From assembly GCA_024398715.1 (NCBI GenBank), contig JAKSIP010000005.1, forward strand, positions 1-64,000: 64,000 bases of DNA. Direction: 5' to 3'. Shown in pieces: positions 3,305 through 41,829 of the stretch; positions within the stretch are counted from its first letter, which is position 1; each line of letters opens with the position of its first letter. Below the pieces are notes generated by a model. That model searched no databases. It had not been told where the DNA came from and saw nothing but the letters and a program-made list of their open reading frames with translations. A program made the position numbers and the translations under genes. Origin of the DNA: Bacteroidaceae bacterium (lineage in GTDB: Bacteria; Bacteroidota; Bacteroidia; Bacteroidales; Bacteroidaceae).

Positions 3305-3332
3305 TGGCGATTGATAAATCCTTCTGGATTTT

Positions 3333-3360
3333 TCGGACAAAGTTAACGCTTTTTGTCCGA
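3333..3360 (-). promoter_or_regulatory. Palindrome overlapping a -7 box upstream of vsr
   Basis: Perfect 9-base inverted arms (3333-3341 and 3352-3360) are separated by ten bases. On the minus strand TAACTTTG (3338-3345), a match to the Bacteroidota -7 box, overlaps the arm proximal to vsr and ends 33 bases before the ATG. No clear -33 element is visible. It could be an operator for vsr or a hairpin in a longer transcript. Confidence 0.35.
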
Positions 3361-3483
3361 TGTCACCACGGTCTCCCTGCATTTGATATTTCTTCTTTGC
3401 CGAGCATAACGACATTGATTAATACAGCCGAAAAGACGCAATGCACTGGTCAGACTGGAAATATGTGGCTCACTGGGTGCTTA

Positions 3484-4647: not shown

Positions 4648-4667
4648 TATTTCACTTTATTCTCTTT

Positions 4668-4904
4668 CTAATTTATCTCCAGTTCCAACTGAGCATATGG
4701 ATCACTTACTGCGCGATATGTTGCGTAATTCTCTGTCAACGGATTCATTGCAGTAGTCTTTGCCTTGGTACAGATAAAATCCCTATTAGCTTCGTTCTGC
4801 ATGCAATGGTGCCGCTGGGCTGGGTCAGATGATCTGACATATACTATTTCTTAGTTTCAGACGATATAACATCAACTAATACTCCAAACACTCCATATGA
4901 ATCA
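4668..4904 (-). pseudogene. Decayed gene fragment between two island genes
   Basis: The gap between the two island genes contains coding-like sequence in two frames. One frame, closed by TAG at 4668-4670, is open for 60 codons up to 4850 and includes SSDPAQRHHCMQNEANRDF and a plausible C-terminus DPYAQLELEIN. Just upstream, about 4854-4900, another frame reads SYGVFGVLVDVISSETKK before a stop. The two pieces join naturally if a frameshift occurred near 4850. I do not recognise the parent protein. A short intact peptide of 44 residues starting at the internal Met is the alternative reading. Confidence 0.4.
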
Positions 4905-6581: not shown

Positions 6582-6592
6582 AATAAAAACAT

Positions 6593-10534: not shown

Positions 10535-10565
10535 TTGTTTTTATAATAAAAAAAGTTACAAATAT

Positions 10566-11117
10566 TCAATTCTTGGCGAAGCGGCGGGAAATCTTGTCCA
10601 GATATTCGCTTACATGCTCAATGCGGGCACGTGTAATAGCGATGCGTCCGGAACTTACAAACTGCAGAATGCAGCCTGTTCCTGCCAACTCGCGGTTCAA
10701 ATCCATTATATCGTCCTTTTTACCGGACTTTTCAACAACACTGAAAGTAGGGTTCACCTCAATGATATTGGCCTGATACTTCCTGATAATCTGGGAAACC
10801 TCAGGATTGCTCATCATGACCGATGTGATAATCTTGAAGAGAGCAATCTCCTGCATGAAGATTTCGCTGTCCTCAAAGAACTGGCACTGCAGTACATCAA
10901 CCTTACGTTCAATCTGCAGTACTACACGCTCAATTTCGCTGCGTGTGGCATATGCGGTAATAGTGTAGCGGTGTACGCCTTCAATAGACGATGCCGACAC
11001 ATTCAAACTCTCAATGTTAATCTGACGACGGGTGAATACAGCCGTTATCTGGTTCAGAATACCGGCTACGTTTTCGGAATGTACAATCAGCGTATAAAGT
11101 TTCTTTTCCGTTTCCAT
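10566..11117 (-). CDS. ilvN: Acetolactate synthase small (regulatory) subunit
   Basis: A 183-residue ACT-domain protein that binds the large subunit and mediates feedback inhibition, usually by valine. The ACT domain is at about residues 4-80, opening with KLYTLIVHSENVAGILNQI and containing RRQINIESLNV. A second alpha/beta region follows. I chose the ATG at 11117, seven bases after the ilvB stop; the frame is open to 11159, but that part overlaps ilvB and does not fit the family. Tight spacing suggests translational coupling with ilvB. Confidence 0.92.
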   Translation of the reverse strand: METEKKLYTLIVHSENVAGILNQITAVFTRRQINIESLNVSASSIEGVHRYTITAYATRSEIERVVLQIERKVDVLQCQFFEDSEIFMQEIALFKIITSVMMSNPEVSQIIRKYQANIIEVNPTFSVVEKSGKKDDIMDLNRELAGTGCILQFVSSGRIAITRARIEHVSEYLDKISRRFAKN

Positions 11118-11124
11118 AGTCAAT

Positions 11125-20884: not shown

Positions 20885-22639
20885 TTACTTGTTGTTGATT
20901 GAAATTTTAAGTTCGTCAAGCTGTGACTGGTCCAGATAGCCGGGGGCATCGAGCATGACATCGCGGCCGGAGTTGTTCTTTGGGAACGCAATGCAGTCAC
21001 GTATGCTGTCAAGTTTTGCAAACAGGCTTACAAGACGGTCAAGACCGAATGCCAGACCTCCATGAGGTGGTGCTCCGTATTTGAATGCATTCATCAGGAA
21101 GCCGAATTTCTGCTGTGCCTGTTCAGGTGTAAAGCCAAGAACCTTGAATATTTTCTGCTGCAGTACTGAGTCATGAATACGTATGGAACCGCCGCCAACT
21201 TCAACGCCGTTGATAACCATATCGTATGCGTTTGCCCTTACACTCTCCGGATTGGTGTCAAGCATATCCACATCTTCCAGCTTAGGCGATGTGAACGGGT
21301 GGTGCATAGCCATAAGACGGTTTTCTTCCTCGCTCCATTCGTACATTGGGAAATCAATAACCCAAAGACATACAAACTTGTCCTTGTCTCTTAGTCCAAG
21401 TTGCGATGCCATCTCAAGACGCAGTTCCGAAAGCTGTTTGCGGGTCTTCATGGCATCGTCTCCGCTGAGGATAAGAATCAAATCGCCGGCCTCGGCATTG
21501 AATGCCTTTTTCATTTCCTGAAGAACATCCTGTGTGTAGAACTTGTCAACGCTTGACTTGACGCTTCCGTCCTGCTCAACGCGTGCGTAAACCAAACCTT
21601 TGGCTCCGATTTGCGGACGTTTTACAAACTCTGTCAGGGCATCGATCTGCTTGCGCGTATAGCTTGCGGCCCCCTTTGCACAGATACCGCCAATGTATGC
21701 GGCGCTGTCAAATACGCCAAATCCGTGTCCTTTCATTATGCCGTCAATCTCTACAAAACGCATGTCAAAGCGCAGGTCCGGTTTGTCGCTGCCGTAATAC
21801 TTCATTGCATCCTGCCATGTCATGCGCGGGAAGGCTTCTTTCATGTCGATGCCGAGTATTGTCTTGAACAGATGTTTTGCAAGTGACTCGAATATGCTTA
21901 TGATGTCTTCCTGTTCAACGAAAGACATTTCGCAGTCAATCTGTGTGAATTCAGGCTGACGGTCAGCGCGAAGGTCCTCGTCGCGGAAACATTTTGCAAT
22001 CTGGAAATAGCGGTCAAAGCCGGATACCATAAGAAGCTGTTTCAGTATCTGCGGGCTCTGCGGCAGAGCGTAGAACTGTCCGGGATTCATGCGTGACGGA
22101 ACAACAAAGTCACGTGCGCCTTCCGGAGTGGAGTTGATAAGAATAGGGGTTTCAACCTCCATAAAGTTCAAACTGTCAAGGAACTTGCGTATTTCCATAA
22201 CAATCTTGTGGCGCAGTTCCAGATTTGCGCGTACTGCCGTGCGGCGCAGATCAAGATAACGGTATTTCATGCGGATGTCATCTCCGCCGTCTGTATTGTC
22301 TTCTATTGTGAAAGGCGGTGTCAGCGCCTGGTTGATGACGTTAAGCTGTGAAACAAGAATCTCAATGTCTCCTGTTGGCATCTTGGGATTCTTTGAACTG
22401 CGTTCGCTTACAGTTCCCTTGACCTGAATTACAAATTCGCGACCCAGTTGCGATGCCGCTTTGCAAAGCTCTGCATCTGCACTTTCATTGAAGACCAGCT
22501 GTGTTATGCCGTAACGGTCACGCAGGTCAACAAAAATCATACCGCCCATTTTGCGGACACGCTGAACCCAACCTGCCAATGTGACGTCCTGTCCGGCATT
22601 TTCCAGTCTGAGTTCTCCACAAGTTTTTGTTCTGAACAT
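20885..22639 (-). CDS. aspS: Aspartyl-tRNA synthetase
   Basis: A 584-residue class II synthetase of the bacterial AspRS type, with an N-terminal OB fold ([19 protein letters not shown]), motif 2 [18 protein letters not shown], the inserted GAD domain at about 290-410 and motif 3 [11 protein letters not shown]. It is the first gene of the long minus-strand run down to ilvC. Whether it is AspRS only or AspRS/AsnRS cannot be told, but a separate asnS at 44.7 kb argues for a discriminating enzyme. Confidence 0.96.
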
Positions 22640-24368: not shown

Positions 24369-25343
24369 TTACAAAGCTGCAATCTGTTCTGCTGTCAGGC
24401 CTGTACACTGACTGATGATTGTAGCGTCAAGGCCAGCAACTTTCATTTTGCGTGCAGTTTCAAGTTTGCCTTCAGCCAACCCTTCTGCAAGACCTTCTTC
24501 GCGGCCTTTTGCCAAACCTTTTTCCAAGCCTTTTGCCTGACCTTCCTCCCAACCGCGCTTGAGCCCCTTGTCAATGGCGGCCTCAAGTTCTGCTGCGCGG
24601 TCAAGCTCAGCATGGAACTTGGCAAGATAATCCATCTGTTCCTGGTAAGTCATGGCAGCAAAATTAGAAATATCAAACAGTTTTTCCAAACATTTGTCAT
24701 TGAAATTTTCCGGAACGGACTTGAGCGACCCCATATTGCGTAGCAGCCATATCATTCTATCGGACAGGGTTTTCAGATCAGACATACTCTTCTTGAACTT
24801 GGGTAGTTCCACAGTCACATAATGCACGTTGTCCGTAAGTGTTTTGCAGATGTCTTTGTCGTTACGTATGCAGAAACTGTTTATGACATTATCTGTAGTT
24901 CTGTCACCATCCATGCTGAAATCCATGATTGCTATTATGTACAGCGGTGCCAGACTGTATTTTTTATCACCGCTCCGCACCTGTTCACGTATTGGATAGG
25001 TGGAGTAATATACCAGACGGTCATTGAAATCCTTCTTCTCTGCCAGCTGCATCTCAATGACCACAGTCTCGCCGTCCTCGGTCGTGGCCTTGATGTCGAA
25101 TATAGTCTTCTTGTCATCCTGACAGTCTCCAATGTTCTCCTGATTGCCAAGAGCCAGTGTCTTGACATGCAAATCTGGTAGGATACTGTCAATGAGCATC
25201 TTGAGAAGTTCTTCATTGCCCGGTGTAGCAAAAACACGTTTGAAGGCAACATCTACACGGAGGTCTATGAACCTGATGTCCTCATCATTTGGATTGATCA
25301 CTGCCGCACCCTGTGCGGAAACTTTGCTTTTTTCTTTTTTCAT
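24369..25343 (-). CDS. Rpn-family recombination-promoting nuclease/putative transposase
   Basis: A 324-residue protein of the PD-(D/E)XK nuclease-family transposase group (Rpn-like). The opening FIDLRVDVAFKRVFATPGNEELLKMLIDSIL and DIKATTEDGETVVIEMQL, with the D...ExQ-type active site, are typical. The C-terminal part is a Lys/Glu/Gly heptad-like run of GLxEGLAEG repeats ending in a small helical domain. Such genes occur in many copies in Bacteroidota, and a 69-base relic of another copy lies at 1719-1787. A possible -7 box TATCTTTG is at 25427-25434 on the minus strand. No terminal repeats are seen. Confidence 0.88.
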   Translation of the reverse strand: MKKEKSKVSAQGAAVINPNDEDIRFIDLRVDVAFKRVFATPGNEELLKMLIDSILPDLHVKTLALGNQENIGDCQDDKKTIFDIKATTEDGETVVIEMQLAEKKDFNDRLVYYSTYPIREQVRSGDKKYSLAPLYIIAIMDFSMDGDRTTDNVINSFCIRNDKDICKTLTDNVHYVTVELPKFKKSMSDLKTLSDRMIWLLRNMGSLKSVPENFNDKCLEKLFDISNFAAMTYQEQMDYLAKFHAELDRAAELEAAIDKGLKRGWEEGQAKGLEKGLAKGREEGLAEGLAEGKLETARKMKVAGLDATIISQCTGLTAEQIAAL

Positions 25344-28086: not shown

Positions 28087-28275
28087 ATGATGAAAAAGAT
28101 ATTATTTTCAATTTTAAGTGTAGCTTCTGCAACTGCTTTATTTGTTTTATCCAACAATAAAATTCAACAAATACCTCTTTTGTCGGATAATATTGAGGCT
28201 TTAACTAGATATGTAAATCATGGACCTGAGGGGCCAAGTGGCTATGATGAAGTTACTGAAGTATTATTTATGTGA
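28087..28275 (+). CDS. NVEALA-type small exported peptide
   Basis: A 62-residue precursor with two adjacent ATG codons, a basic start (MMKKILFS), a hydrophobic segment to about residue 24, and LLSDNIEALT at about 33-42, which is the NVEALA motif. A 22-residue tail RYVNHGPEGPSGYDEVTEVL follows. NVEALA peptides are short exported precursors of unknown role in Bacteroidota, thought to be cut near the motif. I prefer this start to an in-frame ATG at 28033, which adds 18 charged residues before the signal. It is followed 66 bases later by the membrane protein gene of the cassette. Confidence 0.78.
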   Translation: MMKKILFSILSVASATALFVLSNNKIQQIPLLSDNIEALTRYVNHGPEGPSGYDEVTEVLFM

Positions 28276-28341
28276 TGGCTGGTGAAAAATCTTATACAAT
28301 TAAACTTACTTGTAATGTGAAATAATACAAATACCAGAAAA

Positions 28342-29985
28342 ATGAAAAAACACGTTGTATTGAGCGACTGCCTGGTGGCAGCGATTGTCCTGTTGTGCTC
28401 ATTGCTGTTACTCTGTGGCAATGGCGCGGATAATGGGCGGACTTTGTTTTCAATTTGGTGTATGGCTGCAGTATATTGCGCTTGTCGCCTGTCTTTTGTA
28501 TGTGTAGGTAAATATATGCAATACATATTGCCTGTATTAATAGCTGTTGCATGTTTGTACGAATCGGTACTGGGCATTCTGCAACTGACAGGTTTGTCTG
28601 ATTCCAACAATTGTTTCTTTGGTTGTACAGGCTCATTTAAGAATCCCGGACCTTATGGAGGTTTTCTTGCCGTCTGCATAGCTGTAACTGGTTTCTATGC
28701 GCTGCGAGACTGTAGCAAAAGAATTAGAATCATTACCGGTTTGTCTGCGTTATCCGGTCTGATAATTCTTCCGTCTACCATGAGCAGAGCAGCAATTCTT
28801 GCGCTTGCCGCCGCTGTGCTGTATTTGGCATTGACAAGTGAAAATGGCAAAATTTTTCTGAAAAAACATATAGTTTGGCTTGCACCTGCTGTTATTGTAC
28901 TTTGCTGTTGTGCGTATGTAATAAAAAGACCGTCGGCCGACGGGCGTATGTTCATTAACCGTATGAGTGGGCGTATGATATGCCGCCATGCATTGACCGG
29001 AGTGGGGCAGGGATGCTATGCAGGAGCATATGGCGAGGAACAGTACAATTATTTCAATACACAGATAAGCCGGAAAGGAACAGACTCGACCGATTGGACC
29101 GTATTGGACCAGAATCAGCGCATGGTTGCCGACAGTCCCGAATATGCATTCAATGAATTTCTGCAGTTCGGCGCAGAAAACGGAGTGGCAGCCATGACCC
29201 TTCTGATTGCTCTGTTTGTAATTGGCATTGTCCAGTCACACAAACAGCGTACTGCATGGTGCGGAGGGCTTGTCTCTTTTGCGGTGTTTGCCATGTTTTC
29301 TTATCCGATGCATGTTGTTTCCTTTCAGATATTGTTGCCTGTAATGTTGGCGGCAGGAGTTTCTGAGAAAAGTGCTGAAACAGGACATATATTAATGGTC
29401 AAGTACGCAAACATATTAATGCTGATTATACTGACAGTGCTGATTGCCTGCAAAATCCCTTTTGTATATAAACAGAAAAGTGCACGCAGTACATGGGAAA
29501 AGACAGAGTATTGGTACAACTCCGGTTTTTATGATTATGTAATAGCCGATGCCGACTCTCTGTATGATTATATGAAACATGATTCTAACTTTTTGTTTGA
29601 ATATGGTCAGGCTTTGAGTAAAACAGGACAGTATGAGAAGAGTGACTCCGTTCTGATGCAGGGACTGAAAATAAGCTGTGACCCAATGTTCTGGAACGTT
29701 ATGGGAAACAACAGTTTTGAACGCGGTGATTTTGACAAGGCAGTTGAGCGTTATACCCATGCGTTCTGTATGGTGCCCAACAGACTCTATCCGTTGTGCA
29801 GAATTGCCCGCACATATTTTGCCCGTCAAGAAACTGACGACTTTGATTATATGCTGCAAAAGATAAATTCTTTTCCTGCAAAGGTTGAGTCTGCAACAAC
29901 AGAAAAGTTGAGAAAAGAAATAAATGAGCTGCCGGTTACAGGCAACCTTGACGATACTGTAAATAAAACACATAAATTCAGATAA
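28342..29985 (+). CDS. Wzy/O-antigen-ligase-like membrane protein with TPR tail
   Basis: A 547-residue inner-membrane protein. About ten hydrophobic helices cover residues 8-375, with the segment FGCTGSFKNPGPYGGFLAV (near 95) and a long periplasmic loop after GRMICRHALTGVGQGCYAGA, as in O-antigen ligases and polymerases. Residues about 390-525 read as tetratricopeptide-like helices (FLFEYGQALSKTGQYEKSDS, then FWNVMGNNSFERGDFDKAVE). Family members join or transfer glycans from a lipid carrier. Here it is between an exported peptide and a signal peptidase, not in a polysaccharide cluster. The next gene starts one base after its stop. Confidence 0.78.
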   Translation: MKKHVVLSDCLVAAIVLLCSLLLLCGNGADNGRTLFSIWCMAAVYCACRLSFVCVGKYMQYILPVLIAVACLYESVLGILQLTGLSDSNNCFFGCTGSFKNPGPYGGFLAVCIAVTGFYALRDCSKRIRIITGLSALSGLIILPSTMSRAAILALAAAVLYLALTSENGKIFLKKHIVWLAPAVIVLCCCAYVIKRPSADGRMFINRMSGRMICRHALTGVGQGCYAGAYGEEQYNYFNTQISRKGTDSTDWTVLDQNQRMVADSPEYAFNEFLQFGAENGVAAMTLLIALFVIGIVQSHKQRTAWCGGLVSFAVFAMFSYPMHVVSFQILLPVMLAAGVSEKSAETGHILMVKYANILMLIILTVLIACKIPFVYKQKSARSTWEKTEYWYNSGFYDYVIADADSLYDYMKHDSNFLFEYGQALSKTGQYEKSDSVLMQGLKISCDPMFWNVMGNNSFERGDFDKAVERYTHAFCMVPNRLYPLCRIARTYFARQETDDFDYMLQKINSFPAKVESATTEKLRKEINELPVTGNLDDTVNKTHKFR

Positions 29986-29986
29986 C

Positions 29987-30859
29987 ATGAAAAAGATTCC
30001 CGTTATTGCCGTTAAAATCTGCAGCAGATGTATGTATGCTTCGGTGCTGTTGATTCTGTTGCATTTCTGCAGAAGAATATTTATAGCAGAAAAGTTTATA
30101 ATTCCTTCATATTCCATGTATCCAACGCTGATTCCCGGCGATAGAATTCTTGTAAGCAAACTTGAATACGGTGCAAGAATATACAGAAGCTTTGATTTTT
30201 CAGATCATGCGGCTTTGAGGTGTATGCGTATGCCTGCTTTGGGAAAAATCAGTGCGGGAGATATTCTGGTTTTCAATCAAGTCCATCCTTATGGAGACTG
30301 GAGCAAAATTGAATTTAAGATCAACAGCGTATTCTGTAAAAGGGTGCTTGGAGCACCCGGAGATACTGTCAGTATTGCTGATGGTGTGAATTTCAACAAC
30401 CATTACAGCGGAACAATCGGACTGATGCAGTCTCAGAACAGTTTGCAGAATGTGCCGGACAGTCTTTTGATAAATTCAAACTGTTTTTATGCATATCCGT
30501 GGACAAACGGATACAACATCAAGAATCTTGGTCCTTTGTATGTCCCTGCCAAAGGTGACTGTGTTGAATTGGACCTGTGGCATTGCACGCTGTATGCCAA
30601 ACCGGTTGAATATGAAACAGGGCTTGAACTGACCTATTCGGACGGACAGGCCTTTCTTGGTACCGAACCTGTAAGCAGTTATACGTTTCAGGATGACTGG
30701 TTCTATACGGTTGGAGACAACTGCATAGATTCTCAGGATAGCCGGTATTGGGGCTTTGTGCCAGGCCGTCATGTTATTGGTGTGGCGAAATTCATATTGT
30801 GGTGCCGTGACAGCAATACGAATCACCGTAATGCAGGCAGAAATTTTATAAAACTCTAA
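29987..30859 (+). CDS. Signal peptidase I (S26 family)
   Basis: A 290-residue type I signal peptidase anchored by one N-terminal helix (about 15-35). The Ser43 nucleophile in PSYSMYPTLIPGDRI and the general base Lys118 in FCKRVLGAPGDTVSI form the Ser-Lys dyad, and the closing GDNCIDSQDSRYWGFVP is box E. It is probably dedicated to a nearby substrate, such as the peptide at 28087, rather than being the housekeeping enzyme, since it is cotranscribed with the membrane protein gene (1 base gap). It is followed 26 bases later by the transglutaminase-like gene. Confidence 0.88.
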   Translation: MKKIPVIAVKICSRCMYASVLLILLHFCRRIFIAEKFIIPSYSMYPTLIPGDRILVSKLEYGARIYRSFDFSDHAALRCMRMPALGKISAGDILVFNQVHPYGDWSKIEFKINSVFCKRVLGAPGDTVSIADGVNFNNHYSGTIGLMQSQNSLQNVPDSLLINSNCFYAYPWTNGYNIKNLGPLYVPAKGDCVELDLWHCTLYAKPVEYETGLELTYSDGQAFLGTEPVSSYTFQDDWFYTVGDNCIDSQDSRYWGFVPGRHVIGVAKFILWCRDSNTNHRNAGRNFIKL

Positions 30860-30885
30860 TAATCTAATGTTTATATATTTTTATT

Positions 30886-32871
30886 ATGAAAATTGATTCT
30901 TTTACCGTATTTGTGTGTCTGCTGCCTGTAACATGCGGGCTTGTTTCCTGTATGGATAACAGCTTGCTGCAGCAGTCCCTGCAATTGGCAGGTGATAACC
31001 GTGTGGAACTGGAACACGTTCTGGAACATTACCGTAGTGACGGTGAGAAACTTGCTGCCGCAGAATTTCTGATTGCCAATATGCCTGCGCATTACTCGTA
31101 CAGTGACCGGGCTGCAATTGACAGCTATTATGAACTTGCCCAAAAGGTGCTTGAGTGTGATACGCTGACCATTGTGCAGCAGCGTGACACTTTGAAGAAT
31201 TTCTGCGATAATGAAATTCCGTATGCTGGGCACAGGCTGGTTTCCGATGTCAGGATTATCAGGTCAGACTATCTGATCCATTCCATTGACCAGGCTTTTG
31301 ACAAGTGGAAAAACTGTCCGTGGGCGGAACATCTGTCTTTTGATGAATTCTGTGAATGGCTGCTCCCGTATAAGGTTGAAGAGTGCCAGGAACTGGATTA
31401 TTGGCGTGATACCTTGCAGCTGTATTATGGAGACGATATAAAACGTATGATACCGGACGATGTGGAATACAATACATGTTTCAAAACATTGGATTTTGTC
31501 CGCAACGAGGTGCTGAGAGAGGTCAAACCTTACGGAATGTACACCGATGCCGGTCTGCCTATACTCAAAGCGTCTCTTTTGCCCAAACAGACCTATGGAC
31601 GCTGTGTTGATTATGTCAATCTTGGTGTGATGACTTACCGCAGTTTCGGATTGCCTGTCATAAAGGACCATACTCCGTATTGGGGCAGATACCGTGCCGG
31701 CCATTCATGGTATACGGTGCTGGGTGACCGCGGACAGGAACTACCTGCCGAATGGGATTTGAACTCTGTTCCGGGGTGGCAGTTCTTCCCGTTTGAGCGA
31801 ATACCGAAAGTTTTTCGCAGTACATATTCAATCAATCCGGATGTTCTTGAATATAAAAACCGTTCCGTATACAAGTACCCGTTTTCTCTCTGCAGATTGG
31901 ATGTTACAGAAAAGTACATGAATCCGTCGGCAGTGGAAATACCTGTGCCGAAAGTATCGGTTACCGGTGAAAAAATCAGACTGGTTGAACCTTATGCATA
32001 TATCTGCACTTTCAACGGACGCAATACTGACTGGAATATAGTTGATTATGGTAAAATAATACATGGAAAAGTACGTTTTGAGAAAATGGGACGTAACATT
32101 CTGTATATTGTTATGGTATATGATGGAAAAGGACTGGTTCCGGTTTGCCGTCCTTTTGTGCTGAAGAAAAACGGGGCGGTTGGATATGTGGAAACAGACT
32201 ACGATGTCCTTACAAGCATTGTGTTGCGGAGAAAGTATTATGAATCCACCAATGTTGTGGACAAACGCCGCCGTATTCTCGGTGCCAGAATCCAATGCAG
32301 CAATAATTCTGGTTTCAGAAACGCAAAAACAGTGTATGTTGTAGATACAGTGACAATTCCGGACAAGATTGCAGTCCGGGCGGACAAACCGTACCGTTAC
32401 TGGCGGTATCTGGCTGCGGACAGTACATATGGAAGTATTGCCGAACTGGCATTTTTTGACAATGCCGGAACGCAGATTACGGGACGTGCAATAGCGTGCG
32501 CTGCGGCATCGGAACAGGCTGTAGCCAATGCTTTTGACGGTAACAGGCTTACCAATTTTGAAACGGAAGATGCCGATGCCCCGCATGGCGCCTGGATTGG
32601 CCTTGATATGGGAGCGCCGGCGCAGGTTGCCTATGTCCGTATTGTGCCGCGCGGAGACGAGAATGATATTATTCCGGGCGATGAATACGAGCTTCGGTAC
32701 TGGGGCGCGGATAATACATGGGTGTTGACCGGGAAACGTATTGCGGAAGATAATTCGTTGCGGTATGACAGCATTCCGCGCGGGGCGTTGCTCTGGCTCA
32801 GGAATTACTCCAGAGGATGGGATGAACGCCCGTTTATGTTTGTGGACGATAAAAATATAGTCTGGTGGTAA
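30886..32871 (+). CDS. Transglutaminase-like lipoprotein with discoidin-like domain
   Basis: A 661-residue lipoprotein (lipobox GLVSC, Cys22). The core has a transglutaminase/papain-like triad: Cys240 in TYGRCVDYVNLG, His273 in AGHSWYTVLG and Asp291 in AEWDLN. An N-terminal helical region (about 25-215) precedes it. A beta-rich middle follows, and the last 140 residues resemble a discoidin/F5-8C domain (YRYWRYLAADSTYGSIAELA, then AFDGNRLTNFET). Family members cut or cross-link peptides at the cell surface. It is the last gene of the cassette with NVEALA peptide, Wzy-like protein and signal peptidase. The substrate is not known. Confidence 0.75.
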   Translation: MKIDSFTVFVCLLPVTCGLVSCMDNSLLQQSLQLAGDNRVELEHVLEHYRSDGEKLAAAEFLIANMPAHYSYSDRAAIDSYYELAQKVLECDTLTIVQQRDTLKNFCDNEIPYAGHRLVSDVRIIRSDYLIHSIDQAFDKWKNCPWAEHLSFDEFCEWLLPYKVEECQELDYWRDTLQLYYGDDIKRMIPDDVEYNTCFKTLDFVRNEVLREVKPYGMYTDAGLPILKASLLPKQTYGRCVDYVNLGVMTYRSFGLPVIKDHTPYWGRYRAGHSWYTVLGDRGQELPAEWDLNSVPGWQFFPFERIPKVFRSTYSINPDVLEYKNRSVYKYPFSLCRLDVTEKYMNPSAVEIPVPKVSVTGEKIRLVEPYAYICTFNGRNTDWNIVDYGKIIHGKVRFEKMGRNILYIVMVYDGKGLVPVCRPFVLKKNGAVGYVETDYDVLTSIVLRRKYYESTNVVDKRRRILGARIQCSNNSGFRNAKTVYVVDTVTIPDKIAVRADKPYRYWRYLAADSTYGSIAELAFFDNAGTQITGRAIACAAASEQAVANAFDGNRLTNFETEDADAPHGAWIGLDMGAPAQVAYVRIVPRGDENDIIPGDEYELRYWGADNTWVLTGKRIAEDNSLRYDSIPRGALLWLRNYSRGWDERPFMFVDDKNIVWW

Positions 32872-32889
32872 AAAAAACGGTATTGTCAG

Positions 32890-32920
32890 TTGTGATTTTT
32901 TTCAATTAATGTTACTTTTG
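32890..32920 (+). promoter_or_regulatory. Promoter of the efflux operon
   Basis: TTG (32890-32892), 20 bases, TACTTTTG (32913-32920). The start point near 32924 lies downstream of the first possible ATG (32909) and so supports the ATG at 32948 as the real start of the TolC-like gene. Confidence 0.6.
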
Positions 32921-32947
32921 GAAAATTTATTTGTGAAAATAAAAAAT

Positions 32948-34450
32948 ATGTCTTTTTCAACGAATTTCAAGAAAGCCTTTATTTGTCTTTCTGTTTTATT
33001 TTTTTCAAGTTTCCATTTACACGCCCAGTTTACATACAAGCGTATGTTAAGTATGGATGATGTCATCCAACTGGCGCAGGAAAACTCAGTCAGCGGTATG
33101 ACCAACCGCAATAATTTTCTGGCATCTTACTGGAGTTACCGCTCCTTTAAGGCTAACTATCTGCCGTCAGTCAGCGTGAGTGCCCAGTTGATGAATTTCA
33201 ACCGTTCTCTGGTTGCGTTGCAGGATTATAATACCGGTGAGATCAATTACCGCTCCAATTATAATCTTTCAAACCAGGTTACATTGTCAATCAGGCAGAA
33301 CATTGCGGCTACTGGCGGTACAATCCAATTGTATTCCGATATGCGCAGGCTTGACCAGTTCCAGCCGAGTCACAGACAGACATACTATGTACAACCTGTA
33401 ACATTGTATTACCTCCAGCCAATCTGGCAGTACAACAGCCTGAAATGGGACAAGAAGATTGAACCTAACCGTTACGAGCGTTCAAAACGCCAGTATCTTG
33501 AGAGCATGGAGCGTGTTACCCAGACGGCTACCAGTTACTTCTGGAATTATGTGCGTGCCCGCGTTGAGTACGATATGGCTGTGGATAATTTTGAGAAGGA
33601 CAAAAAACTGTACAAGAATGCCCAGACCAGATTTGCCATGGGTACAAAGACCAAAGATGATATTCTTCAGCTGGAACTCAACGTGTTGAAGGATTCCATA
33701 TCGGTTACGGACCAGTCTGTCAATCTTACCAATGCCAGAAATAATCTGTGTTCGTTTATTGGCTATACGGAAGATGCCGATTTTGATTTGCAGGTTTCTT
33801 ACGTAATTCCGGAACTGCAGCTTGATTATGATGATGTTCTTGACAAGTCTCTGAACAATTCTTCTTTTACAATAGGACAGCTTATCTCCAAACTTGAGTC
33901 TGACCGCTCTATCGCCCAGGCTAAGGGGCAGCGCGGTGTAAGGGCTTCTTTCAATGCCACATTCGGTTTGTCCAACAACAATGACCTGTTCAGTCAGGTG
34001 TTCAAAGATGTTCAGGACCAGGAGGTTGTTGGTGTCACTATTGATATTCCTATTCTTGACTGGGGACTTGGCAAGGGCCGTGTCAAGATGGCCGAGGCTC
34101 AGGCCGAAGCTACAAGATACCAGTTGCAGCAGGACCGTCAGGATTATGAACGTGATCTGTTCACAAGGGTGGTCCAGTTCAACAACCAGTATGCACAGTG
34201 CCAGATAGCAAAACGTGCCGCACAGGTTGCTGAGGAGAGCTATCAGAATGCTGTAGATAACTTTGGTAACGGGGCGATGTCTGTTACGGATCTGAATGCA
34301 CTGAAGAGCTCAAGAGACAATGCCCGCTTGAGCTATGTGAACAGTGTTGCCAATTACTGGAACTACTATTTTACAATCAGGGGACTGACTCTGTTTGATT
34401 ATGCAACTTTTACAAACATTAGTGCTGAATTCGATAAACTGACAAAATAA
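32948..34450 (+). CDS. TolC-family outer-membrane efflux protein
   Basis: A 500-residue outer-membrane factor with a signal peptide (cleavage likely after LHA). Two similar coiled-coil halves of the TolC family are seen, with blocks such as QLELNVLKDSISVTDQSVNL and ALKSSRDNARLSYVNSVANYW. It forms the exit duct of the pump encoded downstream. The adaptor gene starts 11 bases after its stop. Confidence 0.92.
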   Translation: MSFSTNFKKAFICLSVLFFSSFHLHAQFTYKRMLSMDDVIQLAQENSVSGMTNRNNFLASYWSYRSFKANYLPSVSVSAQLMNFNRSLVALQDYNTGEINYRSNYNLSNQVTLSIRQNIAATGGTIQLYSDMRRLDQFQPSHRQTYYVQPVTLYYLQPIWQYNSLKWDKKIEPNRYERSKRQYLESMERVTQTATSYFWNYVRARVEYDMAVDNFEKDKKLYKNAQTRFAMGTKTKDDILQLELNVLKDSISVTDQSVNLTNARNNLCSFIGYTEDADFDLQVSYVIPELQLDYDDVLDKSLNNSSFTIGQLISKLESDRSIAQAKGQRGVRASFNATFGLSNNNDLFSQVFKDVQDQEVVGVTIDIPILDWGLGKGRVKMAEAQAEATRYQLQQDRQDYERDLFTRVVQFNNQYAQCQIAKRAAQVAEESYQNAVDNFGNGAMSVTDLNALKSSRDNARLSYVNSVANYWNYYFTIRGLTLFDYATFTNISAEFDKLTK

Positions 34451-34461
34451 ATACTACCGAT

Positions 34462-35550
34462 ATGAAATATAATTTTTTGACAATAGCAATCTCTTTGGTC
34501 CTTACAGCAGGATTCGCAAGCTGCAAAAACGATAAGAAAAATGAAAGCCAGGAAGAAGAACTTGCCAGACTTTCCTATTCAATGGAAAACAATCAGGTAA
34601 CGGCAGCTCCGCTGGTACGCAGGACATTCTACAAGCAGTTGGTCTGCAATGGCCGTCTTGAGGCTGTGCAGCGCAGCAATATCAGCTTTCAGACGCAGGG
34701 AATAGTTGCGTCAATCAAAGTGAAAGAGGGCGATGAGGTGAAGCGTAATCAGGCTTTGGCAGAGCTGGACAAGGAGTCTTTGAATTCTGCAATGCAGTCT
34801 GCCCAACTTTCATATGACAAGGCTGTGCTGAATCTTGCCGACCGTCTGTTGGATTACGGCTATTCCTTGGAAGACACCGCATCAATTCCGGCCGCAACCA
34901 AAAGAATAATCTATATCAATACTGGGTATGCCGATGCGCAGCTGGCTTTCCGGAATGCGCAGCGCAATCTGCAGAATGCTGTGCTCAGAGCTCCGTTTGC
35001 CGGTAAGATTGTAGGTGTCCAGGCAAAGAAATACGAGAATACCAACGGTGTGTTCTGTACCCTTATTGATGACTCGTATATGACTGTCAGATTCAACGTT
35101 CTTGAAACCGAGTATAATTTTGTCAGTGTAGGACAGTCTGTAAAAGTGACTCCGTTCAATGACAACAGTATAGTGATTTTAGGAAATATTGAGTCAATCA
35201 ATCCATCTGTAGATGATCATGGCCAGATAGCTGTTACGGCAAAGGTAAAGAACAACGGAGCGTTACTGGATGGCATGAACGTGAAAATTGTTGTGGAAAA
35301 CAGTGTCCCTGACCAGCTGGTCGTACCCAAAAGCGCTGTTGTAATAAGAGATAATCTTGAGGTGGTGTTCCGTTATGTTGACGGCAAATCCATATGGACC
35401 TATGTAAAGGTTCTGCTAAGCAATACTACAGAGCATTCAATTGTAGCCAATACTGAAAGGGGAGCGGAACTGCACGAGGGCGATATGATTATCACATCGG
35501 GTAATCTGAATCTTGGCAGCGGAGAAGTACCTGTAAAACTTGTCAAATAA
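34462..35550 (+). CDS. RND efflux periplasmic adaptor (membrane fusion protein)
   Basis: A 362-residue lipoprotein adaptor (lipobox GFASC). It has a short lipoyl-type half (GIVASIKVKEGDEVKRNQAL), a helical hairpin, the second lipoyl half (APFAGKIVGVQAKKYE), a beta-barrel and a membrane-proximal end GDMIITSGNLNLGSG. It links inner-membrane permease to TolC. Only one adaptor serves the two permease genes. Confidence 0.93.
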   Translation: MKYNFLTIAISLVLTAGFASCKNDKKNESQEEELARLSYSMENNQVTAAPLVRRTFYKQLVCNGRLEAVQRSNISFQTQGIVASIKVKEGDEVKRNQALAELDKESLNSAMQSAQLSYDKAVLNLADRLLDYGYSLEDTASIPAATKRIIYINTGYADAQLAFRNAQRNLQNAVLRAPFAGKIVGVQAKKYENTNGVFCTLIDDSYMTVRFNVLETEYNFVSVGQSVKVTPFNDNSIVILGNIESINPSVDDHGQIAVTAKVKNNGALLDGMNVKIVVENSVPDQLVVPKSAVVIRDNLEVVFRYVDGKSIWTYVKVLLSNTTEHSIVANTERGAELHEGDMIITSGNLNLGSGEVPVKLVK

Positions 35551-35558
35551 CTGCTGCT

Positions 35559-38500
35559 ATGTTTAAAGGGTTGATCAAAAGACCTATTGCGGTTGTTATG
35601 GTGCTGATTGCAGTTCTTGTACTCGGCATAGCCGCAATAAGGATGCTGCCGGTATCGCTGGTGCCGGATATTGCCATTCCTCAGATTACTGTCAAGGTGG
35701 TATCGCCTAACAAATCTGCCAGGGAACTGAATGAGACAATGATGACGCCGCTAAGGAATCAGTTGATTCAGGTGAATCATCTTGACAATCTTGTGTGTCA
35801 GACAAAAGACGGAAACGGTGTCATTACCATGGATTTTGATTACGGGGCCGATGCCGATTATATTTTTATTGATGTGAATGAACGTATTGACCGTACCATG
35901 AGTTCATGGCCAAGAGACGAGGAACGTCCTATGGTAATACGTGCAAGCGCAACCGATATCCCAGCCTTTTTTATCAATATCACGTTAAAGGAAGAAGATA
36001 AGGATTTTGTTCCGGACGATATCAATACCGTATCACCCAGATTTATCCAGATGAGTGATTTCTCACGTCAGGTGATTCTGCGCAGGATAGAACAGCTGAA
36101 AGAAGTGGCCATGGTAGATATAACAGGTCAGATTTTCCCTGAACTGCTTATTGTACCAGACATGGAGAAACTGTCGTCAATGGGAATATCGGAGAATGAC
36201 CTTGCCTCAGCAATCTCAAATTCCAATGTCAGTCTTGGAAATCTTGTAATCAGAGACGGAGAGTATCGTTTCAATGTGCGTTTCGAGTCCCAGATACTGA
36301 CAAAGGAAGATATTGAGAATGTATATCTGAAAATTTCGGGGCGTGTATATCAGATAAAGGATCTTGCCGATGTGTATGAACATCAGCAACAGCAGGAGGG
36401 AACAGTCTTGTCAGATGGGAAACCTGCAATTACTCTGGCCGTAATCAAAAGAACCGAATCAAAAATGTCTGAACTGAAAAAGGATATCAGAACTCTGCTT
36501 GATTCTTTTGAGGAGGACTATCCGGAACTGGAGTTTACTGTAACGAGAGATCAGACCGAATTGTTGGATTATTCCATCCATAACATGATAGGCAACCTGA
36601 TTTTCGGTGCTGTTTTTGCCTGTCTGATCATTTTCTTCTTTATGCAGGATGTCAAGTCCCCCTCTTTGGTCGTTCTTACAATCCCGCTGTCCATTATTCT
36701 GTCTTTCCTGTTTTTTTATCTGTTCAAACTTACCATCAATATCATTTCATTGTCCGGACTGGTATTGGGAATAGGAATGCTGGTGGACAACTCGATTATT
36801 GTTGTTGACAATATTACCAGAATGTGGAAAGCTGGCGCTCCTCTTGACAGAGCCTGCGTGGATGGCGCCAGAGAGGTGTTTACTCCAATGCTCAGTTCTG
36901 TCCTTACCACATGCGCCATATTCGTTCCGCTGATTTTCTTGAGCGGAATATCCGGCGCGTTGTTCTATGACCAGGCTATGGCTGTTACAATAACACTGTT
37001 TTCCGCATTGATTGTGTCTGTTGTTGTAATCCCGGTGTTCTATTACCAGTTCTACAAGAAACAGACATGCTTTGTACCCAACACATTCATTGAACGGATA
37101 TCTGTGCGTAATATGGATGCCGGTTATGACCGCGTATTGACATGGTTCTTCCGCCGCAGATACGTTATGTGGGTAATATTCGGCTTTTCCGTAGCATTCT
37201 CGGCATTGCTTTTCATGAATCTTGAAAAACGCAAGCTGCCGCAATTGTCCCATACTGATACGCTTGTCAATATAGAGTGGAACAACCGTATTACACTTGA
37301 AGAGAATGTACGCCGTTGCAACATGCTTGTTGAACATTTTGCAGAGAATATTGAACAGTCTACCGTAATGGCCGGAGTCAATCAGTTTGTGCTGTCCCAT
37401 ACCGACCAGATTGGAATAACAGAGTCTATTGTCTATCTCAAGGCGGCAGACGAGAAGGCCCTTGCGCAGATAGAGAACGGAATAGGAGACTATATCCATT
37501 CATTGTGGCCCGATGCAGTGTGCGGCTGCAAGGCCTCCGGAAATATATTCGACATGATTTTTGCTGAAAAGGAGGCTCCTCTCGTTGCAAAACTGCGCTC
37601 TACGGACGGAAAGACTCCTGACCCTTCACAACTGGGTTATGTGTTGTCCAAAATCCAACAAACCGTTCCTGAAGCCAATATGCAGTCTGCAGAGTGGAAT
37701 GAACATATTGAACTTGTTGCAAGTCCTGAGAAACTGGCATTGTATGGTGTCTCTTACAATAGTCTGCTATCATTTCTGAGACAGAATCTGAATGACAACT
37801 CCATACTCAGGGTATCAAAAGGGACTATGTCTGTACCTGTTGTTCTGGGTAACAATAACAGCGATGTCAAGGATCTGATCCAAAACCAGTATATCAATGC
37901 CGGTAATGGAGTACGTGTCCCGGTTGAACTTCTGCTTAGAGAAACCCGTAACAGAGATCTGAAACTGATTACAAGCGGAGTGGAAGGTGAGTATTATAAT
38001 GTTGAACTGGATGTAAAGGGGGCACGGAACGTGCGTTCCATAATGAACCGCATTACCGATATTGTAAGAGACGATATACGTTTCGAGGTTGATTTTTCGG
38101 GTTCATTCTTCTCCAATAACGAGATGATCAAGGAATTGTGCATTGTCCTGCTGATATCGGTATTGCTGCTGTTCTTTATTCTTGCAGCCCAGTTCGAATC
38201 CCTGATCCAGCCGCTGATTATTCTGTCCGAGCTTCTGATAGATATATTTGCAGCATTGCTTACGTTGAAACTTTTCAATGTCAGCCTTAATCTGATGTCT
38301 ATGATAGGAATTGTGGTTATGTGCGGTATTGTAATCAATGACTCAATTCTGAAGGTGGATACCATAAACAAATTGCGGGAAAGCGGTATGGGCTTGAAAC
38401 GTGCTATCCTGGTGGCCGGACAGCGCAGGCTGAAAGCTATTCTGATGACATCTCTGACAACAATTCTTGCAATTGCGCCTTTCCTGGTACGTGGAAATAT

Positions 38501-38624
38501 GGGAAGCGATCTGCAGTATCCGCTTTCTCTTGCTTTGATCAGCGGAATGATAGTAGGAACGTTTGTCAGCGTGTTCTTTATTCCTTTGGCATACTATGTA
38601 ATTGAAAGACACCGTGAAAGATAA
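35559..38624 (+). CDS. RND-family efflux permease (first of two)
   Basis: A 1021-residue inner-membrane proton-driven pump subunit of the HAE/AcrB type: twelve predicted helices and two large periplasmic loops. TM4 has GLVLGIGMLVDNSIIVVDN, so the first proton-relay Asp is present and the second is Asn. In TM10 the usual Lys region reads GIVINDSILKVD. It starts 9 bases after the adaptor gene and its end overlaps the second permease gene. The substrate cannot be told. Confidence 0.93.
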   Translation: MFKGLIKRPIAVVMVLIAVLVLGIAAIRMLPVSLVPDIAIPQITVKVVSPNKSARELNETMMTPLRNQLIQVNHLDNLVCQTKDGNGVITMDFDYGADADYIFIDVNERIDRTMSSWPRDEERPMVIRASATDIPAFFINITLKEEDKDFVPDDINTVSPRFIQMSDFSRQVILRRIEQLKEVAMVDITGQIFPELLIVPDMEKLSSMGISENDLASAISNSNVSLGNLVIRDGEYRFNVRFESQILTKEDIENVYLKISGRVYQIKDLADVYEHQQQQEGTVLSDGKPAITLAVIKRTESKMSELKKDIRTLLDSFEEDYPELEFTVTRDQTELLDYSIHNMIGNLIFGAVFACLIIFFFMQDVKSPSLVVLTIPLSIILSFLFFYLFKLTINIISLSGLVLGIGMLVDNSIIVVDNITRMWKAGAPLDRACVDGAREVFTPMLSSVLTTCAIFVPLIFLSGISGALFYDQAMAVTITLFSALIVSVVVIPVFYYQFYKKQTCFVPNTFIERISVRNMDAGYDRVLTWFFRRRYVMWVIFGFSVAFSALLFMNLEKRKLPQLSHTDTLVNIEWNNRITLEENVRRCNMLVEHFAENIEQSTVMAGVNQFVLSHTDQIGITESIVYLKAADEKALAQIENGIGDYIHSLWPDAVCGCKASGNIFDMIFAEKEAPLVAKLRSTDGKTPDPSQLGYVLSKIQQTVPEANMQSAEWNEHIELVASPEKLALYGVSYNSLLSFLRQNLNDNSILRVSKGTMSVPVVLGNNNSDVKDLIQNQYINAGNGVRVPVELLLRETRNRDLKLITSGVEGEYYNVELDVKGARNVRSIMNRITDIVRDDIRFEVDFSGSFFSNNEMIKELCIVLLISVLLLFFILAAQFESLIQPLIILSELLIDIFAALLTLKLFNVSLNLMSMIGIVVMCGIVINDSILKVDTINKLRESGMGLKRAILVAGQRRLKAILMTSLTTILAIAPFLVRGNMGSDLQYPLSLALISGMIVGTFVSVFFIPLAYYVIERHRER

Positions 38625-41600
38625 TAATGATACAAGATTCAAAATACCGTCTTTTTCGGTTATTTTGATAATGGTTGTGCTGATGATAATTGGTGGCGCA
38701 CTGCTGCCAAAGCTGAATGTGCAGTATTCTCCAAAAAGGGAAAGCAATGTGATTTCTGTCAGCTTTGGGTATCAGGCGGCATCGGCCCGTATTGTAGAAC
38801 AGGAGGTTACGTCCAAGATAGAGGGCGCTTTGAATTCTCTTGACGGTGTGGTAAATGTCAGGGCACGCTCATATTACGGTGGCGGATCGGTAAGCCTTAC
38901 TTTCAAGAAGGGTACCAAAATGGAGGCGGCACGTTTTGCCGTGGCCACCCAGATAAGGCAGATATATGACAGACTGCCGCAGGGAGTGTCTTACCCCAGT
39001 GTGAGCAGTTCAATATCGGGAAACAGCAGCTCTACGCTTTTGCTGATGTACACTATCAATGCCGATATGCCCGCCGACAGGATTGTCAAGTATGCACAGG
39101 ACCTGATAGTTTCTCCATTGTCAAGAGTGGAGGGCATTGAATCTGTGCGAACATCGGGCGCCCAGCCGTTTGAATGGGTTATAACATTTGATCCCAATTC
39201 TTTGCGCTCGGCTGAACTCACTCCGTCTGACCTGAGTGCCGCATTCAACGAATATTTCCGCAATAACATTGTAGGTTCAATGGTTGTTGATGATAAGCTG
39301 ATGCTGCTCAAACTCCGGTCTGAAGATTTGGATGTGTCGCTGGAAAGGATTCCTGTAAAGAAGGTCAACGGGCGGTTGTATTATGTTGGAGATTTTGCTA
39401 CCGTTTCTTATCAGGAAATGGAACCTGATTTCTATGACAGGTACAACGGCTTGAATACTATCTCCGTATCTGTATATGCCCAAGAGGGAATAAACTCCAT
39501 CAAGGTAGCGGAAAATGTAAGGAACAGGATGCTTGAGCTGCAGGAGAATTTTCCCGACAATTATACAATAAAACTGGATTATGACTCATCTACCAGTCTG
39601 AAGGAAGAAATCCATAAAATTTTCAAACGTTCCATCTTATCTTTGCTGATACTGCTGGTTTTTGTTCTTGCGGTGAGCCGCAGTTTCAAATATCTTGGTG
39701 TGATAGCCTTATCCATTACGGCAAACCTGTTGATTGCCGTGATATTCTACTATCTGCTGGGAATAGATATTGAATTGTATTCAATGGCAGGAATAACCGT
39801 GTCTTTGGGTATTATAATAGATACGGCCATTGTGATGACTGACCATTATGCTTATTACCGGAACAGAAGTGTGGCATTTTCCATAACAGGCGCACTATTG
39901 ACAACCATTGCTGCCATGATGATCATATTCTTTCTTCCTGAGGAACAGAAACACAATCTGATTGGATTTGTGTGGGTAATAATCCTAAATCTGTCCATCT
40001 CTCTCTTTGTTGCCTTTTTACTTATTCCGGCAATGCTGGACAGAATATCGCTGACAACCGACGGAGGTGTGATACATAGCGGATGGCGTTACAAACGCTG
40101 GCTTGTAGGTGTTTCCGGCAAGTACGGCAAATATATCGCGTGGGGCAGGAGGCACCGCTGGATTTACATAGTGGTTCTTGTTCTTGGGTTCGGACTCCCC
40201 ATACGCCTGTTGCCCAACCAGGTCTCGCGTGGAAAAGAGTACAGGATAGAGAATAATGTTGTGTATTACAATTCTGACCCCAACAGATATAGGGGCGGAC
40301 TTGTAGGTTTGTATAACTGCACTATTGGAAGCAAGTGGTATCAGAAACATAAAAAGATTTTTGAAGTGTCTCTTGGAGGCGCATTCAACTGGTTTAAAAG
40401 TAAGGAGAATAATTTGTCCTATATCTTCTCCAATATCTCTGGCAGTCAGGATAACAGGGTTGTTCTTAATGTATCCGCACAGATGCCGGAGGGCACAAAT
40501 GCCAGACAGATGAATCAGGTGATGAAAGAAATGGAAAACTGGTTGAGCCAGTTTGACCAGATTGAATCATATTCCACAACAATCGGCGGAAATTACGGCA
40601 GTATGACTATTCACTTCAAGAAGAAATACGAACGTACCAGATTCCCGCATATGCTGAAACAGCAGTTGTGGACAAAGGCTGTCGGATATGGCGCTGCTAC
40701 ATGGTATGTAAGCGCGCTGGATCAGGAAGACCACTCTCTGTCAAACTCTGTTGTCCAGACATCTTTTGACCATTCCATTCCGATTTACGGATACAATTAT
40801 GACATGTTGTACCGTTTTGCCCAGATGCTGATGGATTCTTTGAAAGTCAACAAGAGAGTCTCTGCAACCGGTTTGTCTGCCGAATGGCGCCAGATGGCCG
40901 GAAACGAGTTCTATCTGGACTTCAATAAGGAAAGGATTGTAAACAATAACCTTAATGTTGGCAGTTACAACAATTATTTGAGTGAACAGCTGTTCAACCG
41001 TACAATAGGAACTGTGTTTGACGGCTCTGAAAGCTCAAATGTCAGATTGGTTTCTTCTCAGGCGGATTATTTTGACCTGTGGCACATAACGAACGATATG
41101 GTTGTAATTGACAATACTCCTACACGAATGAGCGATGTCGGGTCACTGACAAAAAGCAAAACGTCTATGGACATTGAAAGGAACAACCAGCAGTATGTTC
41201 TGAATGTCGGTTTCAACTTTGTTGGCTCAAGCTATCTGTGTGAGAAAATGGTTTCAGAAAAAGTGAAACACATGAATCAGATTCTTCCGCTTGGATTTTC
41301 TGTAGGTGGCGAGTCTTTTTACGACTATTACAGCAGCAGCGGTAAAAAACAGTCCGGTCTGATAGTCCTGGTCATACTTGTCATTTTCATGATCTGCTCA
41401 ATAATGACAGAATCTCTGGTAAAGCCGTTGTCTGTAATACTGATGATTCCTGTGGGTCTGATAGGCCTGTTTCTGGTGTTCCCCATGTTCCATACGCAGT
41501 TCAGCAGCGGCGGTTTTGCGTCTATGGTTATGCTGTGCGGTATTGTTGTGAATGCCGGCATATACATAATGAGTGAATACAGAACCGTGTCCGACAAGTC

Positions 41601-41829
41601 CGGAACTCCGGAAGTGAAACGTTTTGTCAAGGCCTTCAACCGAAAGGTGATACCCACTTTGCTCACCATAATCTCTACAGTGCTTGGCCTTATTCCGTTC
41701 CTGTTCGATGGCAAGACACAGACGTTCTGGTTTTCTTTTGCAATAGGCGTAATGGGTGGAATGCTGTTCTCGATATTGGGCCTGTTCTTTTATTTCCCGG
41801 TCTTTATGCCTTTGAAAGAAAAGAAATAG
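38602..41829 (+). CDS. RND-family efflux permease (second of two)
   Basis: A 1075-residue RND permease, clearly diverged from its neighbour. TM4 reads GITVSLGIIIDTAIVMTDH, with one Asp and then Thr, and TM10 CGIVVNAGIYIMSEY. No ATG fits the start: the frame opens with TTG at 38602 or GTG at 38614, inside the end of the first permease gene (23 or 11 bases overlap), which suggests translational coupling. The two permeases may form a mixed trimer, as MdtB and MdtC do, or act as alternatives on the same adaptor. Confidence 0.9.
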   Translation: MKDTVKDNNDTRFKIPSFSVILIMVVLMIIGGALLPKLNVQYSPKRESNVISVSFGYQAASARIVEQEVTSKIEGALNSLDGVVNVRARSYYGGGSVSLTFKKGTKMEAARFAVATQIRQIYDRLPQGVSYPSVSSSISGNSSSTLLLMYTINADMPADRIVKYAQDLIVSPLSRVEGIESVRTSGAQPFEWVITFDPNSLRSAELTPSDLSAAFNEYFRNNIVGSMVVDDKLMLLKLRSEDLDVSLERIPVKKVNGRLYYVGDFATVSYQEMEPDFYDRYNGLNTISVSVYAQEGINSIKVAENVRNRMLELQENFPDNYTIKLDYDSSTSLKEEIHKIFKRSILSLLILLVFVLAVSRSFKYLGVIALSITANLLIAVIFYYLLGIDIELYSMAGITVSLGIIIDTAIVMTDHYAYYRNRSVAFSITGALLTTIAAMMIIFFLPEEQKHNLIGFVWVIILNLSISLFVAFLLIPAMLDRISLTTDGGVIHSGWRYKRWLVGVSGKYGKYIAWGRRHRWIYIVVLVLGFGLPIRLLPNQVSRGKEYRIENNVVYYNSDPNRYRGGLVGLYNCTIGSKWYQKHKKIFEVSLGGAFNWFKSKENNLSYIFSNISGSQDNRVVLNVSAQMPEGTNARQMNQVMKEMENWLSQFDQIESYSTTIGGNYGSMTIHFKKKYERTRFPHMLKQQLWTKAVGYGAATWYVSALDQEDHSLSNSVVQTSFDHSIPIYGYNYDMLYRFAQMLMDSLKVNKRVSATGLSAEWRQMAGNEFYLDFNKERIVNNNLNVGSYNNYLSEQLFNRTIGTVFDGSESSNVRLVSSQADYFDLWHITNDMVVIDNTPTRMSDVGSLTKSKTSMDIERNNQQYVLNVGFNFVGSSYLCEKMVSEKVKHMNQILPLGFSVGGESFYDYYSSSGKKQSGLIVLVILVIFMICSIMTESLVKPLSVILMIPVGLIGLFLVFPMFHTQFSSGGFASMVMLCGIVVNAGIYIMSEYRTVSDKSGTPEVKRFVKAFNRKVIPTLLTIISTVLGLIPFLFDGKTQTFWFSFAIGVMGGMLFSILGLFFYFPVFMPLKEKK

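Follow-up and report, generated by a model that had tools for sequence, protein, structure and literature searches.

The window analysed here is a stretch of 64,000 nucleotides at the start of contig JAKSIP010000005.1 from a Bacteroidaceae bacterium (GCA_024398715.1), whose assembly comprises 2.1 Mb in 71 contigs and is 97.8% complete. Eight consecutive genes on its plus strand, spanning positions 28087–41829, combine a small precursor peptide and a signal peptidase with a tripartite pump, and are a candidate locus for peptide secretion. The genes are listed below.

28087..28275, plus strand: NVEALA-like precursor (62 aa) with a lysine-containing start, one hydrophobic segment, the motif NIEALT and a 22-residue tail free of cysteine
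28342..29985, plus strand: Wzy/WaaL-like multipass membrane protein (Wzy_C, PF04932) with a C-terminal TPR domain
29987..30859, plus strand: S26 signal peptidase with Ser43 and Lys118 (PF10502, 97.2 bits)
30886..32871, plus strand: predicted lipoprotein with a transglutaminase-fold domain (Cys240-His273-Asp291) and a discoidin/CBM-like C-terminus
32948..34450, plus strand: TolC-type outer membrane channel (PF02321, 132.7 bits), with an earlier in-frame ATG at 32909
34462..35550, plus strand: periplasmic adaptor (MFP; TIGR01730, 130.1 bits)
35559..38624, plus strand: RND pump subunit 1 (PF00873, 510.5 bits)
38671..41829, plus strand: RND pump subunit 2 (PF00873, 352.7 bits); the open reading frame (ORF) opens with TTG at 38602, and 38671 is its first ATG

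The first four genes had been described previously, in a reading made from the letters of the DNA (the sequence-only reading), as a four-gene cassette. All four ORFs were verified on the plus strand, with gaps of 66, 1 and 26 bases, and the genes are present and clustered as described. The extent of the cassette did not hold, because 32871 is followed directly by the genes for TolC, the adaptor and both RND subunits, which co-occur with the others; the four genes are the first half of the unit, and a four-gene cassette as the full unit is ruled out. From the lipoprotein gene through TolC, adaptor and the two RND genes the gaps are 76, 11, 8 and 46 bases, assuming the TolC start at 32948 and the first ATG of the second RND gene. 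The tripartite pump is thus complete in the window, with RND subunits (PF00873 twice), adaptor (TIGR01730) and outer membrane channel (PF02321).

The S26 protein scores 97.2 bits against PF10502 (cut-off 22.9), Ser43 and Lys118 are invariant in an alignment of 23 rows, and in the PDB it matches signal peptidase I best, in agreement with the complete Ser-Lys signal peptidase reported earlier. The second protein, previously called a Wzy/O-antigen-ligase-like membrane protein with a TPR tail, matches Wzy_C (38.1 bits, cut-off 31.7), has the TPR tail and shows a WaaL fold in its predicted structure. Judged by this domain and modelled fold it belongs to the O-antigen ligase/Wzy superfamily, with glycan transfer as a putative activity. 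Cys240, His273 and Asp291 sit in the lipoprotein as stated in the sequence-only reading, and its predicted structure has a transglutaminase core fold. In an alignment of 111 rows His273 is invariant and Cys240 and Asp291 are conserved in at least 90%; in a wider alignment of 29 rows Cys240 and His273 are both retained in 29/29, and Asp291 in only 6/29. The lipoprotein gave no match to PF01841 at E 0.1, though several of its homologues carry PF01841. Families were scanned in 49 window ORFs, leaving out 10506–11177 and 20888–22639 of the 50 larger ORFs. Neither a glycosyltransferase family nor a glycan donor pathway was found among the 49, consistent with the earlier statement that no glycosyltransferase cluster is nearby, and a plain polysaccharide role was dropped on this ground.

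The first gene had been reported to encode a 62-residue NVEALA-type precursor. Its length and its NIEALT motif agree with this, but its score against PF14055 is 17.5 bits and misses the curated cut-off of 27, and the peptide is therefore termed NVEALA-like only. Against profile A1, made from 20 locus peptides of which the window peptide is itself one row, it scores E 2.5e-8. Its tail is the third shortest among 137 distinct peptides, and it may be a degenerate member. An ORF of 16 codons in another frame (28275–28325), containing one cysteine, overlaps the stop of the peptide gene.

Relatives of the Wzy protein were found in 114 of the 301 genomes of the family. We read 42 loci, namely 40 stretches around mostly better Wzy matches together with L031 and the window. 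Gene clusters over these loci, with Pfam names taken from one member each, comprised Wzy (42), transglutaminase (30), S26 (29), RND (24), TolC (23) and adaptor (22). The two largest beta-propeller clusters occur at 26/42 and 16/42 loci, a redoxin/DUF1573 cluster at 19/42 and a winged-helix regulator (Trans_reg_C) at 9/42; beta-propeller and thioredoxin-like genes thus belong to the unit in relatives. NVEALA-type peptides were recognized by pattern at 30 of the 42 loci. When loci beyond the first 42 are included, 28 of 40 S26 genes have a same-strand Wzy neighbour, downstream in 17 cases and upstream in 11.

Co-occurrence was examined in 80 of the 301 genomes, 41 of them with Wzy at E 1e-20 or better (Wzy+) and 39 without a match at 1e-3 (Wzy-). 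Locus-type S26 was present in 35/41 Wzy+ vs 0/39 Wzy- genomes (Fisher p 8e-17), the adaptor in 37/41 vs 2/39 (p 7e-16) and NVEALA-type peptides in 35/41 vs 3/39 (p 4e-13), the p values being inflated since the genomes are related. The transglutaminase protein was found in 40/41 vs 5/39. Locus-type S26 was counted at E 1e-28 or better (weakest counted match 7.2e-41, next best 7.9e-26), the S26 thresholds having been chosen after this gap in the scores was visible; the other thresholds were E 1e-20 for the adaptor, 0.01 for the peptides and 1e-20 for the transglutaminase protein, which matches in 57/80 genomes at 1e-3. Peptides were thus present in 38 of the 80 genomes, a chosen, non-random set. 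The genes of the sequence-only reading, whose peptide, Wzy-TPR and S26 genes were to be sought together in other genomes, therefore do co-occur and cluster elsewhere, with S26 and Wzy adjoining on the same strand as counted above, and the clustering of the locus exceeds chance. Lack of co-occurrence elsewhere, one outcome that would have refuted that reading, was not observed.

Shared synteny alone, with unrelated envelope genes staying neighbours in one lineage, was considered as the source of this pattern, as the genomes behind most of the co-occurrence counts belong to one family and share descent. Within the genera g3, g6, g9 and g23, however, some genomes have the full set and others lack it entirely (with partial patterns in g3, g9 and g23), so that shared ancestry does not explain everything. 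Gene order varies between lineages while adjacency is kept, pump and peptides co-occur even where the pump lies far from Wzy (G149, ~950 kb), and the association recurs outside the family, as described below. We therefore regard synteny without common function as very improbable.

Four Wzy+ genomes (G011, G039, G101 and G200) lack peptide, S26 and adaptor together. As the Wzy and transglutaminase-fold pair occurs in them, these two proteins are not peptide-specific. A tree of 60 Wzy proteins, which covers 35 of the 41 Wzy+ genomes and in which the positions of L085 and one L088 row are unsure due to long branches, separates 11 type B rows (support 97/97). None of these 11 has S26 or adaptor within 7 kb, vs 36 of the other 49 rows. 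The four genomes above and G103 have only type B Wzy among the placed rows. Of the 35 typed genomes, 30 bear the window Wzy clade and have S26 in 29/30, MFP in 30/30 and peptide in 28/30, vs 0/5, 1/5 and 1/5 in the five with only the other clade. The type B loci are a separate system, and counting them with the rest was abandoned since the tree separates them. These loci (L077–L079, L084–L088, L091 and probably L076) mostly carry a transglutaminase gene, and L076, L077 and L079 share partners of 315–341 and 452–465 aa; the L076 Wzy is cut by its contig and absent from the tree. A Pfam scan of six type B neighbours left three unmatched at 0.01, the other three matching only below curated cut-offs. 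A contig scan that used the window Wzy as query recovered a single locus, and L076, at a contig end, is a second transglutaminase-Wzy locus in the genome of the window.

The 137 distinct peptides, most of them profile-search matches and hence biased toward the motif, share the consensus block S-D-L-x-x-x-N-V-E-A-L-A-x-x-E. In 136 of them (one mis-anchored row omitted) the last motif residue is A in 121, S in 11, T in 2, and G and C in one each. The tails vary strongly between peptides, and 126/137 contain two to five cysteines. A motif scan with positions -3 and -1 left free gave 87 candidate ORFs. The next gene on the same strand belongs to a propeller cluster in 51/87 and to DUF4221 in 4/87; among these 55, A, S, T or C stands at -1 in 50, and of the remaining five, four were not such peptides on inspection and one was mis-anchored. 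The motif ends in small-x-small, as a signal-peptidase site would. Signal peptidases follow the -3/-1 rule, and small-x-small matches the specificity of S26. In the L124 peptides (NRQAIA, NVVAFA and NTDAFA) the Glu is lost and A-x-A retained, as this rule would have it, and an S26 is encoded in the same locus. On these patterns S26 is predicted to cut the precursor at the motif. L067 (17410–19239) has a tandem run of five NVEALA peptide genes, uninterrupted by any called gene, whose leaders are nearly identical and whose tails differ.

A different candidate for cutting the motif is the transglutaminase-fold protein, which would then be a cysteine peptidase, with S26 removing ordinary signal peptides only. 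LapG cuts at a di-alanine site, and the Cys-His-Asp residues of the lipoprotein are in place. Against this stands not only the fit of small-x-small to S26 but also the distribution of the genes: 9/45 genomes with the transglutaminase family have no peptide match, and among Wzy+ genomes the peptides are tracked by S26 (p 0.002) and not by the transglutaminase gene (p 1.0). Cutting by the transglutaminase-fold protein is thus rather improbable.

The propeller or DUF4221 gene that follows 55/87 candidates, the strong variation of the tails and the Trans_reg_C cluster of 9/42 loci would also suit a sensing system, in which secreted peptide signals are read by the propellers and by the membrane-anchored winged-helix regulator of some loci. 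That regulator is found in only 9/42 stretches and not in the window, and no link between expression and peptides was found; we consider a sensing system improbable.

The genome of the window contains two further peptides on other contigs, L073 with NVEALS and L074 with NVEAMS, located 56 and 58 bases upstream of propeller genes. A fourth match (L075, E 0.0019) showed no motif ORF and was excluded from the counts. With these two peptide-propeller pairs located away from the machinery of the window, that machinery probably acts on dispersed peptides too.

Outside the family, a survey of 247 genomes of the order gave 12 genomes from 10 families with peptides at E 1e-4, and 36 of 233 peptide-free genomes were used as controls. 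The adaptor (E 1e-40) was present in 8/12 peptide genomes vs 6/36 controls, Wzy (E 1e-15) in 6/12 vs 2/36 and full-length S26 (E 1e-80) in 5/12 vs 0/36, so that the adaptor goes with more peptide genomes than either of the others; at E 1e-25, where housekeeping enzymes are included, S26 was matched in 47/48 genomes. In G397 (L140) peptide, propeller, TolC, adaptor and two RND genes are consecutive. G354 (L124) carries three tandem peptides, propeller, thioredoxin-like genes, S26 and pump within ~12 kb, and G366 (L125–L127) has longer S26 genes beside loci bearing peptide, Wzy and transglutaminase. In L142 and L143 propellers adjoin adaptor/pump in genomes without a peptide match. A cysteine-rich repeat ORF (L143, 10681–11136; 151 aa, CxxCxGxG-type repeats) lies beside the propeller and pump of one of these.

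These genomes bear on the end point of the route. The sequence-only reading had proposed export and attachment by the four genes; export with an own signal peptidase fits our results, whereas the four-gene extent does not, as the pump belongs to the unit. S26 could still cut the peptide and the WaaL-like and transglutaminase-fold enzymes join it to a glycan or surface protein, with display and not release as the end point. The lack of a glycosyltransferase among the scanned window ORFs argues against display, as do the same Wzy and transglutaminase families in genomes without a peptide match and, outside the family, four genomes (G354, G397, G409 and G537) with peptide and adaptor and no Wzy match. 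Display is unlikely on these grounds.

In Bacteroides and its kin this pump, an extra signal peptidase and small peptides tend to co-occur, and the genes are therefore likely to form a secretion route. We consider it slightly more probable than not that the eight genes of the window represent one instance of a conserved locus encoding a two-step peptide secretion system, in which the catalytic and transport steps are predicted. Sec would insert the NVEALA-like precursor into the inner membrane, and the local S26 would cut it where the motif ends in small-x-small. In relatives, thioredoxin-like proteins encoded nearby may then pair the cysteines. The freed tail, a small peptide that usually contains cysteine, would leave the cell through the RND-MFP-TolC pump. 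The Wzy-TPR (WaaL-like) and transglutaminase-fold proteins may modify or trim the peptide, or modify its attachment, and the beta-propeller proteins encoded beside many peptides could bind it. A wider version is possible and is put forward tentatively: a secretion system not described before, present in many families of one order, in which a central machine made up of the signal peptidase, the WaaL-like TPR enzyme, the transglutaminase-fold lipoprotein and the RND-MFP-TolC pump would cut, modify and export the large pool of variable peptides from genome-wide peptide-propeller pairs, with NVEALA as universal cut site and the propeller as cognate receptor or immunity protein.

Several observations, in addition to the relatedness of the genomes and the choice of the S26 thresholds, weigh against a two-step secretion system. 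The window peptide is atypical in its short tail without cysteine and in being adjoined by Wzy and no propeller. The motif stands at a greater distance from the hydrophobic segment than in a usual signal peptide (in the window peptide, linker and motif together make up 19 residues), and since the entire N-V-E-A-L-A-x-x-E block is conserved, its small residues may have been retained on other grounds. The window S26 is the only S26 found in this assembly and may have a housekeeping role; as 5/5 congeners examined have another S26 match, which lies in an ORF of 483–502 aa, an assembly gap is the likely explanation of the single S26 here. Within the family, G024 and G088 have S26 and adaptor and no peptide match, G091 (with a split, weak S26 match) and G103 have peptide and adaptor and no full S26, G001 and G054 have the adaptor but neither Wzy nor S26 nor peptide, and G048 has peptides and a transglutaminase gene without Wzy, S26 or adaptor. 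The remaining two peptide matches among Wzy- genomes are weak (G059, E 0.009; G063, E 0.002). Outside the family the adaptor is absent from 4/12 peptide genomes and present in the 6/36 peptide-free genomes mentioned above.

The unit is flanked upstream by a glucuronyl-esterase-like gene and a CBM9 gene and downstream by tRNA-Leu and an adenylosuccinate lyase gene. The Bacteroides-type promoter pattern consists of TTG, 19–23 bases and TAnnTTTG; it is matched at 27766, before the peptide gene, and at 32890, before tolC, and these matches are weak as 20 occur in the window on both strands. On the minus strand, 24369–25343 encodes a PD-(D/E)XK nuclease family transposase-type protein (PF12784) between the esterase gene and a 333-aa ORF after tRNA-Pro. 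Also on the minus strand, 1848–7921 looks like a restriction-modification island, with a C5 DNA methylase, a Vsr endonuclease, a Bro-N protein and ORFs of 387 and 558 aa without a Pfam match at 1e-5.

If a two-step secretion system is correct, bacteria of this kind possess a secretion route devoted to peptides, whose cargo is large and variable, and as the peptides are tied to a particular signal peptidase and pump, each step gains a simple gene-removal test. No role for NVEALA-type peptides is given in the sources searched. We found no mention of NVEALA in the literature searched, most subscription papers being outside that search, and none of DUF5128; the papers matched by PF14055 dealt with malaria or enzyme profiles and are probably coincidences of gene numbers. 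Apart from PMC10434189, broader literature matches were, by their titles, works on other topics. B. thetaiotaomicron is a tractable laboratory organism. A B. thetaiotaomicron iron-response table lists an O-antigen ligase (BT0662), a 6-bladed propeller (BT0664), a signal peptidase I (BT0667) and an RND adaptor (BT0669) (PMC10434189). By gene names alone BT0662–BT0669 look like an equivalent locus; in the parts consulted they are separate table entries and no system is described (PMC10434189).

Like the NVEALA family of PF14055, the peptides have a hydrophobic start, the motif at about residue 37 and a mostly cysteine-containing tail, and 119 of 120 homologues of the locus-peptide profile, among the matches listed (of 279), carry PF14055. 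The window peptide differs from that family in its score below the cut-off, its NIEALT and its short cysteine-free tail. The window Wzy resembles WaaL/PglL/Wzy ligases in its Wzy_C match and WaaL fold; unlike them it has a TPR tail and is linked to a peptide and a pump, and no glycosyltransferase was found in the window. Type I secretion of double-glycine-leader bacteriocins uses C39 peptidase transporters and shares with our locus the small precursors with conserved leader and variable tail and the linked genes for cutting and export, whereas the NVEALA-type leader bears a hydrophobic segment. No C39 peptidase or ABC transporter family was found among the 49 scanned window ORFs, and NVEALA as a double-glycine-type leader for a C39 transporter was rejected for this reason. 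E. coli STb is exported in two steps through MacAB-TolC, with Sec export, a signal peptidase cut, disulfide pairing and periplasmic pickup by the tripartite pump. The route proposed here would follow the same course of Sec export, signal peptidase cut, disulfide pairing and tripartite pump, and differs from it in the RND-type pump, the locus-encoded S26, the WaaL-like and transglutaminase-fold proteins and, in relatives, the propeller genes.

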